From Zwartia panacis (GTDB lineage Bacteria > Pseudomonadota > Gammaproteobacteria > Burkholderiales > Burkholderiaceae_B): 64,000 nucleotides of DNA. The notes under the pieces were generated by a model, which saw only the letters and a list, made by a program, of their open reading frames with translations, searched no databases and was not told where the DNA came from. A program made the translations under genes and the position numbers. The stretch lies in NCBI RefSeq assembly GCF_030410395.1, contig NZ_JAUHHF010000009.1, positions 1-64,000 of the forward strand, written 5' to 3'. Shown in pieces: positions 40,840-46,413 of the stretch (within the stretch, counting starts at the first letter, position 1; each line of letters opens with the position of its first letter).

Positions 40840-41469
40840 TTACTTGGCGGGAACGTACTCTTTGGGACGAATCATTTCAAACAGAGTGTTGACCTCGACA
40901 TAGTCACCTTTGTAGCCACAACGTCCCAAGGGCCGTGCCGCAGCCGTGTCAAAAATACCGTCTTTCAGAAACTCGTCGTTGATATGAACGCCGACCACCT
41001 CGCCAAGCGTGAGCCAAGTATCGATGAGATCGCCTTTTGCGTTTTTGAGCTGAGTCGTACTGATCAACTTGCATTCAAGCGCCGCAATCGCACGGGCGAT
41101 ACGAGGAGGCTTGACAAGCGTCGAAGCGGCGGCTTCGAGGCCGGCTAGCTTCATCTCGTCAACACCCGGGGCGACTGATGCCGAACTGATGTTCATTTCC
41201 TGCGCCAGCTCCGCACCACAGAAGTTCGCCACGAACTCGCCAGTCGCATCAATATTGTTGACGCTGTCTTTACGGACGTGGCTTGTGCAAAAACCAATGA
41301 CAGGTGGCGTCTCGGCAAAGGCATTGAAAAAACTGTAAGGGGCAAGATTGACCCGACCCTGCAGATCGATGCTGGAGATCCAGCCGATCGGACGCGGCGC
41401 CACAATCGCTTTGAAGGGGTTATGCGGCAGGCCATGGCCTTTGCTGGGTTCGTAAAAATAGTCGCTCAC
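40840..41469 (-). CDS. flavin reductase (DIM6/NTAB) family protein
   Basis: The 209-residue FMN-binding split-barrel protein has HNPFKAIVAPRPIGWISSID and GRVNLAPYSFFNAF, the typical FMN-contact region. Such proteins reduce flavin for partner monooxygenases or act alone. No partner monooxygenase gene is adjacent. The GTG at 41469 has AAGGA seven bases upstream and yields the family's normal N-terminus; the longer frame to 41811 runs through the divergent hydratase gene and is rejected. It is divergent from the three-gene hydratase. Confidence 0.88.
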   Translation of the reverse strand: MSDYFYEPSKGHGLPHNPFKAIVAPRPIGWISSIDLQGRVNLAPYSFFNAFAETPPVIGFCTSHVRKDSVNNIDATGEFVANFCGAELAQEMNISSASVAPGVDEMKLAGLEAAASTLVKPPRIARAIAALECKLISTTQLKNAKGDLIDTWLTLGEVVGVHINDEFLKDGIFDTAAARPLGRCGYKGDYVEVNTLFEMIRPKEYVPAK

Positions 41470-41635
41470 GGATGAATCCTTGAAAAGTGAAGTCGCAATG
41501 CACAGAATATCAGGTACTCGCTGTGATCTTTTAGCATAAATATTTTCTGCCACGCGGCTGAAACGACAAGACAGCCGAGTCAAAATGGGTGTAAAAATAG
41601 GCTCTACTTCGACACAGATGACATGAGAGTCCTGT

Positions 41636-41962
41636 ATGACTGAAAGAAAAGTGAACGATCTAGGTGGACAGCCGGCCGGACCGGTCTGTTTGGACGAGCA
41701 TCCCAGCACGCTGCATGAAAAACGCGTGGATGCCTTGCAGAAGTTATTGACGGGAAGCAAACTGCAGGCGTTTACCTCGGATGCCATGCGACGCGCCATC
41801 GAGTCCAACACCGAAGAGGACTACAAGAACATGTTGTATTACGACAAGTGGATCCGCGCAGTTCGCGATCTGGTGATCGAGCAGCAGTTGCTCACCGCGA
41901 AAGAAATCGATGACCGCATTGAGCTCCTGCGCGAACGCTACAAACAAAAGGGAACGCTATGA
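41636..41962 (+). CDS. nitrile hydratase/thiocyanate hydrolase beta-N part (ScnB-like)
   Basis: The 108-residue helical protein starts with a DLGG motif and has LHEKRVDALQKLL and a C-terminal helix DKWIRAVRDLVIEQQLLTA. This corresponds to the N-terminal half of the nitrile hydratase beta subunit (compare YxxHWLxAAERIL in Pseudonocardia-type enzymes) and to the small beta subunit of thiocyanate hydrolase. The gene overlaps the next by four bases (ATGA), so the three genes are coupled in the order beta-N, beta-C, alpha, which is the scnB-scnA-scnC order. It is not an activator: the FxEPWE-type signature is lacking. Confidence 0.83.
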   Translation: MTERKVNDLGGQPAGPVCLDEHPSTLHEKRVDALQKLLTGSKLQAFTSDAMRRAIESNTEEDYKNMLYYDKWIRAVRDLVIEQQLLTAKEIDDRIELLRERYKQKGTL

Positions 41963-42282
41963 CCGCGATTGCTCCCCGTCCCGGGCAGGCACTGCCTGCC
42001 GGTACTCCAGTCGTTGTGCGCAGACAGCCTCCTGAAGCGCATTGCCGAACGCCGTTTTATTTGCGAGGTGCGCGCGGTGAAATCGCTGAAGTAAGAGGTT
42101 GCTACCGCGATCCTTCCCTACTGGCCTTTCATAAACCGGGTCTGCCGATGCGTGTGCTGTATCGCGTGCGCTTCAAACAAAAAGACGTCTGGCCGAACTA
42201 TACCGGCAGCCCTCACGACACAGTCGTCGCAGATATTTATGAACACTGGATCGATCCAATCACCGGAGCAGAAAAAGCATGA
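41959..42282 (+). CDS. nitrile hydratase/thiocyanate hydrolase beta-C part (ScnA-like, SH3-like barrel)
   Basis: The 107-residue protein matches the C-terminal SH3-like barrel of the nitrile hydratase beta subunit: HCRTPFYLRGARGEIAEVRG and VLYRVRFKQKDVWPNY, ending in DTVVADIYEHWIDP. In thiocyanate hydrolase this segment is a separate alpha subunit. It packs on the metal subunit and supplies contacts to the active-site sulfinate/sulfenate cysteines. Four-base overlaps with both neighbours show tight coupling. Confidence 0.87.
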   Translation: MTAIAPRPGQALPAGTPVVVRRQPPEAHCRTPFYLRGARGEIAEVRGCYRDPSLLAFHKPGLPMRVLYRVRFKQKDVWPNYTGSPHDTVVADIYEHWIDPITGAEKA

Positions 42283-42974
42283 GTACGTCCCACGGCCATC
42301 ATCACGACCACGATCATGACCATGATCACGACCATGGACATCCGCACGCGCATCCACACTCCCCTCCGGCGCCGGACGATGACGATCACTACGACCGCTA
42401 CGAAGTCTTGTTGCAGACCGCCATTCGTGAATTACTGGACGAAAAGGGCATTATCACTGCAGAGGAATTACACAGACAGATTGACTACCAGGACAGTCTG
42501 ACGCCTGCGATCGGAGGCAAGATCGTTGCCAAGGCTTGGGTTGACCCGGAGTTTAAAAAGAAACTGTTGGCCGAACCGCTCAAGACAATCAATGCGTCTT
42601 TTGAGCTCGATATCACCACACCACTCGATCTAGTCGTACTGGAAAATACTCCCAAGGTGCACAACGTGGTGGTATGCACGCTATGTTCCTGCTACCCGCG
42701 CATGCTGCTGGGTATTCCGCCTGCATGGTACAAGTCGATCGATTATCGCTCGCGTGTCGTCGTCGAGCCCCGCAAAGTGCTTGCAGAGTTTGGAACGCAC
42801 TTACCCGATGATGTCGAGGTCCGCGTTTCCGACAGCACAGCAGACCTGAGGTTCCTGGTTTTGCCTAATCGTCCTGCGGGTACCGAGGCCATGAGTGAAG
42901 CAGAACTTGCCGAACTGGTCACTCGGGACTCAATGATTGGCACGTCTTTGCCATTGAGCCCGAAAAAAACTTAG
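42279..42974 (+). CDS. cobalt-type nitrile hydratase alpha / thiocyanate hydrolase gamma subunit with His-rich tail
   Basis: The 231-residue metal subunit has the claw motif VCTLCSCYPR, whose Thr (rather than Ser) in C-T-L-C-S-C marks the cobalt (Co3+) type; the cysteines are normally oxidised to sulfinate/sulfenate. KAWVDPEFKKKLLAEP and PPAWYKSIDYRSRVVVEPR match the family. The first 27 residues hold 13 histidines (H at 5, 7-9, then alternate with Asp), followed by an Asp-rich stretch, which is not part of the usual fold. The enzyme hydrates a nitrile to amide, or thiocyanate to ammonia and carbonyl sulfide; the sequence alone does not decide. No activator gene is adjacent. Confidence 0.93.
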   Translation: MSTSHGHHHDHDHDHDHDHGHPHAHPHSPPAPDDDDHYDRYEVLLQTAIRELLDEKGIITAEELHRQIDYQDSLTPAIGGKIVAKAWVDPEFKKKLLAEPLKTINASFELDITTPLDLVVLENTPKVHNVVVCTLCSCYPRMLLGIPPAWYKSIDYRSRVVVEPRKVLAEFGTHLPDDVEVRVSDSTADLRFLVLPNRPAGTEAMSEAELAELVTRDSMIGTSLPLSPKKT

Positions 42975-43759
42975 AGGATTTTTTGGCGTATGCGGGTGAT
43001 CAGGATTTCGGCAAGAATCACAATCACGAAAATCGAAATCAGGATCACCGCTACGCGATCCCACTGAAAGAGATTAAGTGCGGTATCCAATGCCATGCCG
43101 ATACCGCCTGCGCCGACCAAACCAAGCACGGCGGACTCCCTGACGTTGATATCCCAGCGCAACAACACAATCGACCAAAAGGCCGGTTTGATTTGTGGCC
43201 AGTAACCATATTGGATCAGTGCGCCTGTGCTCGCCCCGACAGAGGTCAACGCTTCAATCGAGCCACGCTGCGCCTCTTCGACACTCTCTCCAACCAGCTT
43301 GCCCACGAAACCAATTGAACGAAACGCAATGGCCATGGTGCCCGCCAACGGACCCGGACCAAAAATCGCGATGAACAAAAGTGCCCAGACCAAGGAATTG
43401 ACCGAACGACTGGAGACGAGAATCAGGCGCGCGAGTGTATTAATCAAACGATTCGGTGTGAGATTGTTCGCCGCAAGAAGACCAATCGGCACCGCAAGCA
43501 ATACCGAGATGATCGTCCCCAGTGTGGCGATATGAATGGTTTCAATCAATGCGTCATGCACCGAACCGGAGTAATGCGCCCAGTCAACAGGCCACATCCG
43601 TGAGAACAAATCCGCCATTTGCTCAGGAGCGTCGAGCAAAAATTCGGGGATCACCTCAACACTGCGAATCGATTGAACAACAGCGGCGACAAACAAAAAA
43701 TAAAAACCAAAGCGCACGAGCCTTTGGCTCAGCGAATAACGCTCCCAGACCCTATTCAT
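42971..43759 (-). CDS. phnE: phosphonate-type ABC permease PhnE (second copy)
   Basis: The 262-residue inner-membrane permease has about six spans, including ISVLLAVPIGLLAANNLTPN, and the loop ESVEEAQRGSIEALTSVGAS that contacts the ATPase. It matches the PhnE family. Its stop overlaps the hydratase stop by four bases (convergent), and its start overlaps the upstream permease stop by four bases. Two PhnE proteins likely pair as a heterodimer. Confidence 0.9.
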   Translation of the reverse strand: MNRVWERYSLSQRLVRFGFYFLFVAAVVQSIRSVEVIPEFLLDAPEQMADLFSRMWPVDWAHYSGSVHDALIETIHIATLGTIISVLLAVPIGLLAANNLTPNRLINTLARLILVSSRSVNSLVWALLFIAIFGPGPLAGTMAIAFRSIGFVGKLVGESVEEAQRGSIEALTSVGASTGALIQYGYWPQIKPAFWSIVLLRWDINVRESAVLGLVGAGGIGMALDTALNLFQWDRVAVILISIFVIVILAEILITRIRQKIL

Positions 43760-44631
43760 GACGCCACCTTGGGAGCCGGCATGGATGAAGGTTTGCCTTT
43801 GAACAACTCTGCGATGGTCAGATTGTCAAGAAACACGCGCCGAATCACATTGGCCAACAGCTCGCCCAACATGATGAGCGTGATGATACTGATCAAGATC
43901 GTGCAGACATAGTCGTAATCGAATCGTTGGAAGGCGGAGAACAATGTCCCGCCAATGCCGCCCGCTCCCACGATCCCGACCATGGTCGAGTTGCGCAGAT
44001 TGGAGTCAAACTGGTATGTGCAAAAGCCGATAAATCGAGGAAACACCTGAGGCAAGACAGAAAAAATAATGACATTGGCAAACGAGGCGCCAGTCGCACG
44101 CACCGCTTCGACCTGCTTGAGAGAGATCTCTTCGATTGACTCTGTGAACAGCTTGCCGATGAAGCCGATCGAAGCGACCGTCAAGGCCAGAATACCCGCC
44201 AACGCACCAAAACCCACTGCCTTCACAAACAAGATCGCGACAATCACAGGATGCAAGGCCCGGCAAAACGCCACAATCGTGCGCGCGGGCCAAGAGGCCC
44301 AGCCCGGCATGAGATTGCGGGCGCCCAACAGCCCAAGAGGCAATGCCAGAAAGATGCCAAGCGTCGACGCCAACACCGCGATCTCAAGACTTTCTGACAA
44401 GCCCTTGATCAACAGGGTGTAACGCTCGAAATTCGGTGGAAACATCCGGTCTAAAAAGGTCGCGGCATGTCCGAGACCGGCAATAAAACGTGCCAGTGTG
44501 ACATCAAGCTGCGCGCTCGCATAAATGACATACAGGACGGCAAGCAACACGCCTGCCTTTGCCTTGAGCGACATCGTGAAAGGCTTGCTATGCGCGCGAC
44601 GTGCGCCAGAGGATGGGGTGGACGCCGTCAT
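43756..44631 (-). CDS. phnE: phosphonate-type ABC permease PhnE (first copy)
   Basis: The 291-residue permease has an N-terminal extension before the first span ([20 protein letters not shown]) and the coupling loop [20 protein letters not shown]. The sequence [20 protein letters not shown] is PhnE-like. The ATG at 44631 overlaps the phnC stop as ATGA and is preferred over an upstream TTG. It is homologous to, but longer than, the second permease. Confidence 0.9.
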
Positions 44632-45398
44632 ACGATCCAAGACTCGCCGCCGTAAATCCTTTTGAGCATGCCATGATCCAGCCCCGAAGCCGGACCGTCA
44701 TAGACCACTTCTCCTCCCGACATACCAATCAGGCGCGTCGCATAACGCTTGGCCAACTCAACATCGTGCATGTTGATGACGACAGGAATTTGTTGGGCCT
44801 GCGCCTGCGCAGTAAGCAGCTCCATAATCTCCACAGAGGTCTTGGGATCCAGTGAAGAAGTTGGTTCGTCCGCCAGCAAAATAGCTGGAGCCTGCATCAA
44901 GGCACGCGCGATGCCGACACGCTGCCTCTGCCCGCCTGAGAGCGCATCGGCGCGCTGGCTTGCGAAATCACCCAACCCCACCGTATCCAAGTAGCGGTAG
45001 GCTTGTTCAATGTCTTCTGGTTTGAAACTCCGAAACCAGGCTTTCCAGGCCGGCAAATATCCCAGCCGCCCGGTCAACAGGTTTTCCATCACCGTCAGAC
45101 GTTCCACGAGGTTGTATTCCTGGAACACCATGCCGATATGACGACGCGCATGACGCAATGCCGCGCCTCGGACACGGGTCAAATCCACCGTGCCTTGAGA
45201 AGTATTCAAGGTGATTTGTCCATCCGAAGGCTCGACCAACCTGTTGATGCAGCGCAGCAACGTGCTTTTTCCCGTGCCCGAGGGACCGATGATCGCGGTC
45301 ACCTCCTGGCCGGATATATCGAGGTTGATACCCTTCAGAACAGGGTGGCCCGCCCGGTAAGACTTGACCAACCCTTTGATGCTCAGCGCAGAAGCCAT
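44628..45398 (-). CDS. phnC: phosphonate-type ABC ATPase PhnC
   Basis: The 256-residue ATPase has Walker [12 protein letters not shown], the Q-loop in [19 protein letters not shown], signature [10 protein letters not shown] and Walker [13 protein letters not shown]. The [10 protein letters not shown] segment is typical of PhnC. It energises the two PhnE permeases. The ATG at 45398 follows the phnD stop by four bases; upstream residues in the longer frame belong to that gene's region and are rejected. Confidence 0.92.
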
Positions 45399-45402
45399 AA
45401 AA

Positions 45403-46413
45403 CTATTTGGCCTTCGCTTTTGCTTTTGCTTTTTCAGCCTCACGGTCATAAGCAGCGCGGTTGAACTTTTCTCCGCCGGCCTCGGCGACTTCACGCACGA
45501 TCGCCCAGTCTTTTTCGTAGGTCACAGGATAGAAGCGGTCCGCACCATCAAAGGCTTTTTGCATGGCGGCCGGATAGCGATAGTCATAGAAACACGCCAG
45601 CATCTTGTCGCGGAATCCTGGTTCCAGATCATGCGCATAGGCGAAAGATGAGGTCGGAAACTTTGGACTGGTATAAATGATGCGGAAATCATCCTTATTG
45701 ATCTGTCCACGCCCTGCCATACGATAAAACACGTCGGAAGCCACGGCAGCCGCATCGTAATCACCAGACTTTACGCCCATGACGGATTGATCATGTTTGC
45801 CTGAAAACAGGATTTTGTAATCTTTCTCAGGTGTCAAACCCTCTTTGGGAAACAAGGCCATAGGGGCCATATGGCCCGAGTTTGAAGAAGGTGCCGTATG
45901 AGCAACCTTTTTACCCTTCAGGTCAGACATTTTTTGAAACGGGCTGTCTTTTTTCACAATCAAAATCAGGTTGTAACCCTGAAAACCATCGGCCGTACCT
46001 TTCACAGCAAAGGGTACCGCTCCTGCGATGTTGACTGCGAAGGCCGTTGGACCAGTCGAAAAGCCACCCACATGAAGTCGACCCGAGCGCATCGCCTCGA
46101 TTTCAGCCGCATTGCTCTGCACCTGATAAAAAACGACACGTTTGCCTGTGCACTGAGCCAGGTGCTTGGTGAAAGGCGTAAAGATTTCTTCGTACACCGC
46201 AGGGTCTTCGACGGGCGTGTAAGTAAACACGAGCGTGGAAGGTGTTTTAAGCTTGGATTTGTCGGTGGGTGTATCCGCGACCATGTCTTTGTTGGCATCA
46301 CAGTACAGCGAATCCAGATCACCCCGGTTCGGGCAGGCTTGAGCAAAGCTGGCACTAGCCATGCCCATCGTCAGAGCGGCCAGACCCGCAGAAAACAACA
46401 GGGATAATTTCAT
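45403..46413 (-). CDS. phnD: PhnD-type phosphate/phosphite/phosphonate binding protein
   Basis: The 336-residue periplasmic protein has signal peptide [20 protein letters not shown] ending SFAQA. The PhnD core includes [40 protein letters not shown] and [13 protein letters not shown], the loop lining the anion site. An N-terminal segment after the signal holds two Cys and a D39-x-N-x-D43-x3-D47-x3-D51 acidic pattern. The C-terminus is a KAKAKAKAK tail. No phosphonate-degrading gene (C-P lyase, phnX, ptxD) lies in the window, so the ligand may be phosphite, phosphonate or another anion. Confidence 0.9.

Follow-up and report, generated by a model that had tools for sequence, protein, structure and literature searches.

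Gene organization at the locus

The window, that is, the whole stretch of 64,000 nucleotides that was analysed, contains three consecutive forward-strand genes that encode the parts of a nitrile hydratase (NHase) family enzyme. These are beta-N (41636..41962, 108 aa), corresponding to the N-terminal half of the NHase beta subunit (PF21006 NHase_beta_N, E 2.5e-13); beta-C (41959..42282, 107 aa), corresponding to its C-terminal half (PF02211 NHase_beta_C, E 6.3e-20); and alpha (42279..42974, 231 aa; PF02979 NHase_alpha, E 1.4e-75). All three domains exceed the Pfam gathering scores and both junctions are four-base overlaps; gene limits, protein sizes and overlaps agree exactly with those of a first-pass annotation made from the sequence. 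The alpha subunit carries the cobalt-claw motif CTLCSC, preceded by V, at residues 133-138 (42675..42692, forward strand), and the cysteines and serine of this claw are invariant across the 114 sets compared. With its three domains and its claw the set is a member of the NHase superfamily, and the Pfam matches and the motif bear out the earlier reading: a cobalt-type enzyme of the NHase family whose beta subunit is split in two.

The subunits have counterparts in thiocyanate hydrolase (SCNase, ScnABC) and in the three-subunit NHase of Streptomyces canus (AnhDEA): beta-N corresponds to ScnB and AnhD, beta-C to ScnA and AnhE, and alpha to ScnC and AnhA. Among PDB chains, the top match of beta-N is ScnB (2dd4_B), a weak one at E 0.0023; that of beta-C is 1v29_B (E 2.6e-8), with ScnA (2dd4_A) at E 4e-5; and that of alpha is 4ob1_A (E 8.6e-64), with ScnC (2dd4_C) at E 1.4e-55. 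The alpha subunit begins with a His-rich tail (42291..42359, forward strand) that is perhaps metal-binding; such tails are also common in the alphas of NHases with Trp after CSCYP (Trp-type), so this feature is not diagnostic. On the reverse strand, a flavin-reductase-like open reading frame is listed at 40840-41811, overlapping the start of beta-N. Its family match begins only at residue 139, and the match to its counterpart in genome G004 starts at residue 111, so the true start probably lies downstream of the listed one.

The split beta subunit in close and distant relatives

The same-genus sample comprised 20 loci, fetched with up to 1.5 kb per side, and included that of the window itself. 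Of the 19 others, 17 carry beta-N and beta-C as individual genes in identical order (one of these, L015, has its beta-N cut by a contig end and was counted as split), and in none of the 19 was a fused beta seen. The remaining two, L008 and L013, have no readable beta-N because their contigs stop inside beta-C. Outside the genus, beta-N and beta-C are separate in 115 of the 120 loci of the class to which the window set belongs (Arg-type, from the residue after CSCYP: 116 Arg, 3 Lys, 1 Gly); these figures apply among the matches listed, and the scan used a profile of the window's own clade, so that the locus sample favours this clade. The other five are L223, with a fused beta, and L106, L132, L167 and L227, where the stretch read lacks beta-N, beta-C or both.

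It is important to consider that an apparently split gene can be a sequencing error or a gene in decay. The two unreadable same-genus loci are what could be cited in favour of an error here, and they are explained by contig ends; the recurrence of the split in both near and distant Arg-type loci, and the intact claw and conserved arginines, speak against this explanation. We regard it as practically negligible. The first-pass annotation had also described a single beta gene as the usual NHase arrangement. The split that it reported is present, but the arrangement is less rare than was thought, given its frequency among the listed Arg-type loci and its presence in a separate Streptomyces group. 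Among the matches listed, beta is fused in 33 of 36 Trp-type loci, in 0 of 7 ScnC loci and in 8 of 8 loci of an NHase-like CTLCSC-TAF/TAY group.

Among the same listed matches, an activator gene lies nearby in 35 of 36 Trp-type, 6 of 7 ScnC and 0 of 8 TAF/TAY-type loci, and an extra beta-N-like gene lies nearby in 2 of the 120 Arg-type loci (L101 and L121). These neighbourhood counts cover loci within 6.5 kb of alpha (L165 and L166, which share one chromosome, are counted separately) and were read with profiles built from single seed genes, which means that partner genes may be missed; an annotated aquaporin in L190 was missed once. Across the listed Arg-type loci, the split beta, the arginine after CSCYP and the absence of a nearby activator go together. 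The exceptions are L223, which combines Arg with a fused beta; L025, L216 and L192, which combine a split beta with Trp and an activator; and L101 and L121, with their extra beta-N-like gene.

Several further sets were observed in this survey. The L192 set, from a Gloeocapsopsis dulcis plasmid, has a split beta, Trp after CSCYP and an annotated activator, stands outside the Arg class, and adjoins an isochorismatase-family hydrolase and an ABC transporter. Two Streptomyces sets (L294 and L296) have CSCYP-L, a fused beta and no activator seen, and form a long branch beside the split group. The TAF/TAY group (L035-L038, L228, L233, L241 and L242), with fused beta and no activator nearby, is present in the window's genus too. 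Finally, L092 (CAMCZQ010000257.1), a contig of a metagenome-assembled genome labelled with a Bordetella species name, is probably the same contig as G030:C257 of the window's genus, and its label is probably misassigned.

Diagnostic residues

The class can be read from the residue that follows CSCYP. In the window this is alpha Arg141 (codon 42699..42701, forward strand), which the first-pass annotation had left unmentioned; it is the equivalent of gamma-Arg136 of SCNase, judged by aligning a ScnC with the gamma chain of the SCNase structure (2dd4_C). Of the 75 Arg-type split sets, 72 have Arg in this column, two Lys and one Gly; the column holds Arg in 5/5 ScnABC sets; Trp in all 16 fused and both split Trp-type sets; Leu, Ile or Val in 10/10 Streptomyces split sets; Val in the toyocamycin-type (toy-type) set; and Phe, Tyr or Leu in five other fused sets. 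The specificity of SCNase is probably governed by a second pocket arginine besides gamma-136. In the alignment to ScnB, the window's beta-N has the pair Arg52-Arg53 (codons 41789..41794, forward strand). Arg52 is invariant in the 114 sets. At the position of Arg53, 66 of the 75 Arg-type split sets have Arg and six have Lys; 5/5 ScnABC sets and 1 of 16 fused Trp-type sets have Arg, and 10/10 Streptomyces split sets have Asp. A third arginine, Arg30 of beta-C (HCRTPF; codon 42046..42048, forward strand), is likewise invariant in the 114 sets and, aligned to 1v29_B and 3qxe_B, would occupy the position of NHase beta-Arg157. According to excerpts of two papers (PMC7193024; also PMC4709657), the oxidised cysteines of NHases are held by two beta arginines, numbered R52 and R157 in the first of them, and we infer that beta-N Arg52 and beta-C Arg30 are these two. 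The residue after CSCYP, the state of beta and the presence or absence of an activator offer a simple sequence test of class.

Phylogenetic placement of the window set

A concatenated tree of beta-N, beta-C and alpha was built from 114 sets (L167 was dropped, no beta-N having been found). In it, the 75 Arg-type split sets and the five ScnABC sets make up one side of a branch with support 100. The window falls within a 10-row group (support 99) that joins L103 (support 97) to give an 11-row clade; ScnABC is placed apart from the window group, beside a 13-row group that includes aquaporin-linked sets (support 99). In the alpha tree, the seven ScnC rows form one side of a branch (support 99) among split-Arg rows, and two split-Arg rows, L148 and L162, fall beside the fused group. 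In AU tests that used a quick tree, and for which the groups (the window group included) were named after the trees had been seen, a single clade of the window group and ScnABC was rejected on the concatenated tree (p 0.0047), as were clades uniting the window group with the Streptomyces/toy group (p 8e-108) and with the fused Trp-type enzymes (p 0.0007); one clade of all split sets was not rejected (p 0.37).

By this phylogeny the window set is a member of the Arg-type split clade, and SCNase is a branch nested in that clade, away from the window. The match to thiocyanate hydrolase and, in part, to toyocamycin NHase that the first-pass annotation had noted is borne out in part: the clade contains SCNase, but the window set forms no clade with ScnABC or with the toy group. 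Nor does it lie firmly inside the ordinary nitrile hydratases.

Comparison with thiocyanate hydrolase

One alternative is that the window set is itself a thiocyanate hydrolase, converting SCN- to carbonyl sulfide and ammonia, and the nesting of SCNase inside the Arg-type clade counts for it. As in ScnABC of Thiobacillus thioparus (PDB 2dd4), the window has a split beta, a CTLCSC claw, an arginine at gamma-136 within CSCYPR and Arg-Arg in beta-N, and the order beta-N, beta-C, alpha is that of the ScnC loci examined; an excerpt of a review (PMC7193024) gives the SCNase gene order as alpha, beta, gamma, activator. Genes annotated as thiocyanate hydrolase subunits in M. smegmatis are also reported, in excerpts of the respective papers, to be induced 3.4-3.7 fold in nitrogen limitation (PMC4617892) and to be listed as raised about 2.4 fold in a mutant of PII (PMC11001197). 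The former induction would count for this alternative if these genes belong to the clade.

More specific comparisons argue against it. The window's alpha scores 218.3 bits against the ScnC model TIGR03887, below the cut-off of 291.45, and of 399 genomes searched in the order, seven have a match that clears it, with scores from 338 to 400 bits, while the next one down reaches 234; 0 of 9 other proteins tried pass the model. The window set has 0 of the 26 ScnABC-specific residues, taken as the columns in which the five ScnABC sets depart from the residue that most Arg-type sets have. No activator was found in the window genome, whereas most of the listed ScnC loci have one nearby, and the rejected joint clade places the window on another branch. 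We consider it unlikely that the set is a thiocyanate hydrolase. The match with the Thiobacillus genes that had been noted at first pass stands for the split and for the gene order, and probably does not extend to the identity of the enzyme. NHase and SCNase trees have been built from representative query proteins (PMC10098168), and Arg-type sets probably make up part of the broad 'SCNase' range given in an excerpt of that paper, which takes in Alphaproteobacteria and Cyanobacteria.

Probable maturation without a separate activator

The genome-wide search for an activator covered the window genome (completeness 100), other genomes being searched near alpha only. With TIGR03889, no separate activator of the P15K type was found there; the only match was beta-N itself, at 19 bits against a cut-off of 46. 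It is likely, by analogy with AnhD, that the beta-N of Arg-type sets matures its own alpha. A role for the His-rich alpha tail in replacing the activator was considered and set aside, the tails of Trp-type alphas being His-rich too (median 6 vs 5 His). The window genome also has a NicO-family gene, which may be an importer or an exporter; the NicO profile also matches in E. coli.

Genomic neighbourhood

In 5 of the 11 rows of the window's clade (L041, L052, L093, L094 and L103) a PotD-PotB-PotA-like transporter lies upstream, with a second permease seen in L041, L052 and L094. An isochorismatase-fold hydrolase lies nearby in four of the 11 (L042, L093, L094 and L103), a count that is blind for L052, whose stretch stops about 0.4 kb past alpha. 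Both partners are rare over the 120 out-of-genus Arg-type loci among the matches listed (PotD in three, the hydrolase in five). Of 13 genus genomes, 2 have a PotD counterpart; none was found in that of the window, which has no close counterpart of the isochorismatase-type hydrolase of G004 either (best match 34%); the hydrolase was accordingly rejected as a fixed partner. Because L103 is the deepest row and has both the PotD transporter and the hydrolase, this set-up is probably old and was probably lost in the window's line.

Immediately beyond alpha, a PhnE-PhnE-PhnC-PhnD-like cassette (42971-46413, reverse strand) lies between alpha and an MBL-Nudix gene; its PhnD passes TIGR01098 and fails the PhnD equivalog model. 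The cassette occupies this site in three of seven genomes (G000, which is that of the window, G012 and G029) and is absent from it in the other four (G015, G022, G005 and G031), all of which keep the enzyme, so it too was rejected as a fixed partner. Several genus members share TauD, TauE, flavin reductase, MBL-Nudix and SBP genes as conserved neighbours, but these suggest no clear pathway, and Bug/TTT binding-protein genes near Burkholderiales loci were treated as background and left uncounted. Elsewhere in the window genome there is a cyanate lyase (PF02560; G000:C44:264186-264386).

The neighbours of more distant kin are of other kinds. Arg-type members on alphaproteobacterial plasmids carry varying sets of aquaporin, DUF302, CbtAB and NixA-type genes, and a Streptomyces plasmid member (L190) has an aquaporin and a NixA-type gene; by profile, an aquaporin occurs in nine loci, and it is annotated beside the genes in several kin. 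The alphaproteobacterial plasmid sets resemble the window in their Arg class and split beta, and no activator is among their annotated neighbours in a gene table that is partial. Unlike the window, they mostly have the order beta-C, alpha, beta-N, and they belong to the branch nearest ScnABC.

Comparison with Streptomyces and classical nitrile hydratases

In an excerpt of the report on the S. canus enzyme (ScNHase), the genes are given in the order anhD-anhE-anhA, an activator was not found in the genome, and AnhD is described as a metal and subunit-swapping chaperone (PMC7329996). An arrangement of three genes without an activator therefore has a precedent, one that the first-pass annotation had left unmentioned, and the window has it too, on another branch. 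ScNHase was assigned to the Streptomyces split group only via a single 20-base primer match: the anhD start matches exactly in L281, L287 and L292 (L281 and L287 being one genome), all of them CSCYP-V, and lies at the start of beta-N in the two loci in which this was checked (L287 and L292), while the anhE primer has no match in 307 loci. A further Streptomyces locus, L293, has a split NHase (beta-N, beta-C, alpha) with CSCYP-V and no activator seen. The locus also has matches to queD, queE and queC, together with a LuxR-type regulator, a phosphoribosyltransferase, an IMPDH/GMP reductase and the lyase and synthetase of adenylosuccinate. This is presumably the gene content of a toyocamycin/sangivamycin cluster. 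AnhDEA and ToyJKL are thus like the window in their split beta, their gene order and their lack of an activator; the Streptomyces sets used differ from it in both diagnostic columns, and the joint clade is rejected. The first-pass comparison with ToyJKL holds for architecture, but the window set lies outside the toyJKL-type group. The classical cobalt NHases of Pseudonocardia thermophila and P. putida share with the window the family, the cobalt claw and the conserved beta arginines; Trp-type enzymes differ from it in their fused beta, in the Trp after CSCYP and in having an activator gene nearby in the loci compared.

These comparisons bear on a second alternative, in which the enzyme, like ScNHase, hydrates neutral nitriles in general and the arginines do no more than shape the cobalt site. 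The alpha subunit misses the cut-off of the NHase alpha model TIGR01323 narrowly (243.4 vs 249.85 bits) and is nearer to it than to that of TIGR03887. This model is passed by one of six other Arg-type alphas (L057), by L282 and by the Trp-type L030, and not by L293, a mixed outcome which means that its cut-off fails to separate the classes. The hydrolase partner in some kin, which suggests an amide product, and the aquaporin that adjoins some members also fit a neutral substrate. Against it stand the residue after CSCYP, so consistently Arg in this class and Trp or an aliphatic residue in the fused Trp-type and Streptomyces enzymes, and the rejection of the window group as a clade with either of them. 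We regard this alternative as rather doubtful, and return to the reading that we prefer.

Proposed function and significance

That the window set performs chemistry of the NHase class is close to certain, judged from its family membership. With somewhat better than even confidence, we propose that it is a cobalt enzyme which hydrates a small nitrile, polar or anionic, as a source of nitrogen; the substrate's charge is guessed from two aligned residues. The first-pass annotation had named no single substrate, and neither do we. In the proposed mechanism, alpha would bind cobalt through its CTLCSC claw, and beta-N would act as a metal and subunit-swapping chaperone, as reported for AnhD in the excerpt of PMC7329996. 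A cobalt-bound water or hydroxide would add to the C-N triple bond; the product, an amide or an amide-like compound prone to break down, would supply ammonia. Alpha Arg141 and beta-N Arg53 would make the pocket positively charged, so that a small polar or anionic nitrile would be expected and not a bulky hydrophobic one; the aquaporin beside several kin fits an uncharged substrate or product and argues against a charged one. In some kin, the PotABCD-type transporter probably imports the substrate, and the isochorismatase-fold hydrolase would cut the amide. Since close counterparts of PotD and of this hydrolase were not found in the window genome, the pathway may differ there.

The Arg-type split branch appears to be widespread and little-studied, like SCNase at two arginine positions and not otherwise, and we recognised no description of this activator-less clade in the open-licence literature. 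More tentatively, and with rather less than even confidence, we suggest that the Arg-type split enzymes may be a separate and widespread family with activator-free maturation, acting on an anionic or strongly polar substrate with a C-N triple bond for nitrogen; that SCNase may be a specialist that arose inside it; and that many genes now carrying the label 'thiocyanate hydrolase' or 'nitrile hydratase' may belong to it. Such a view separates three classes that annotation lumps together, namely the fused Trp-type NHases, the Streptomyces three-subunit NHases and the Arg-type split clade with SCNase, and it offers a testable idea for the origin of thiocyanate hydrolase. If true, it would also correct how much 'thiocyanate hydrolase' potential is counted in genomes and metagenomes.
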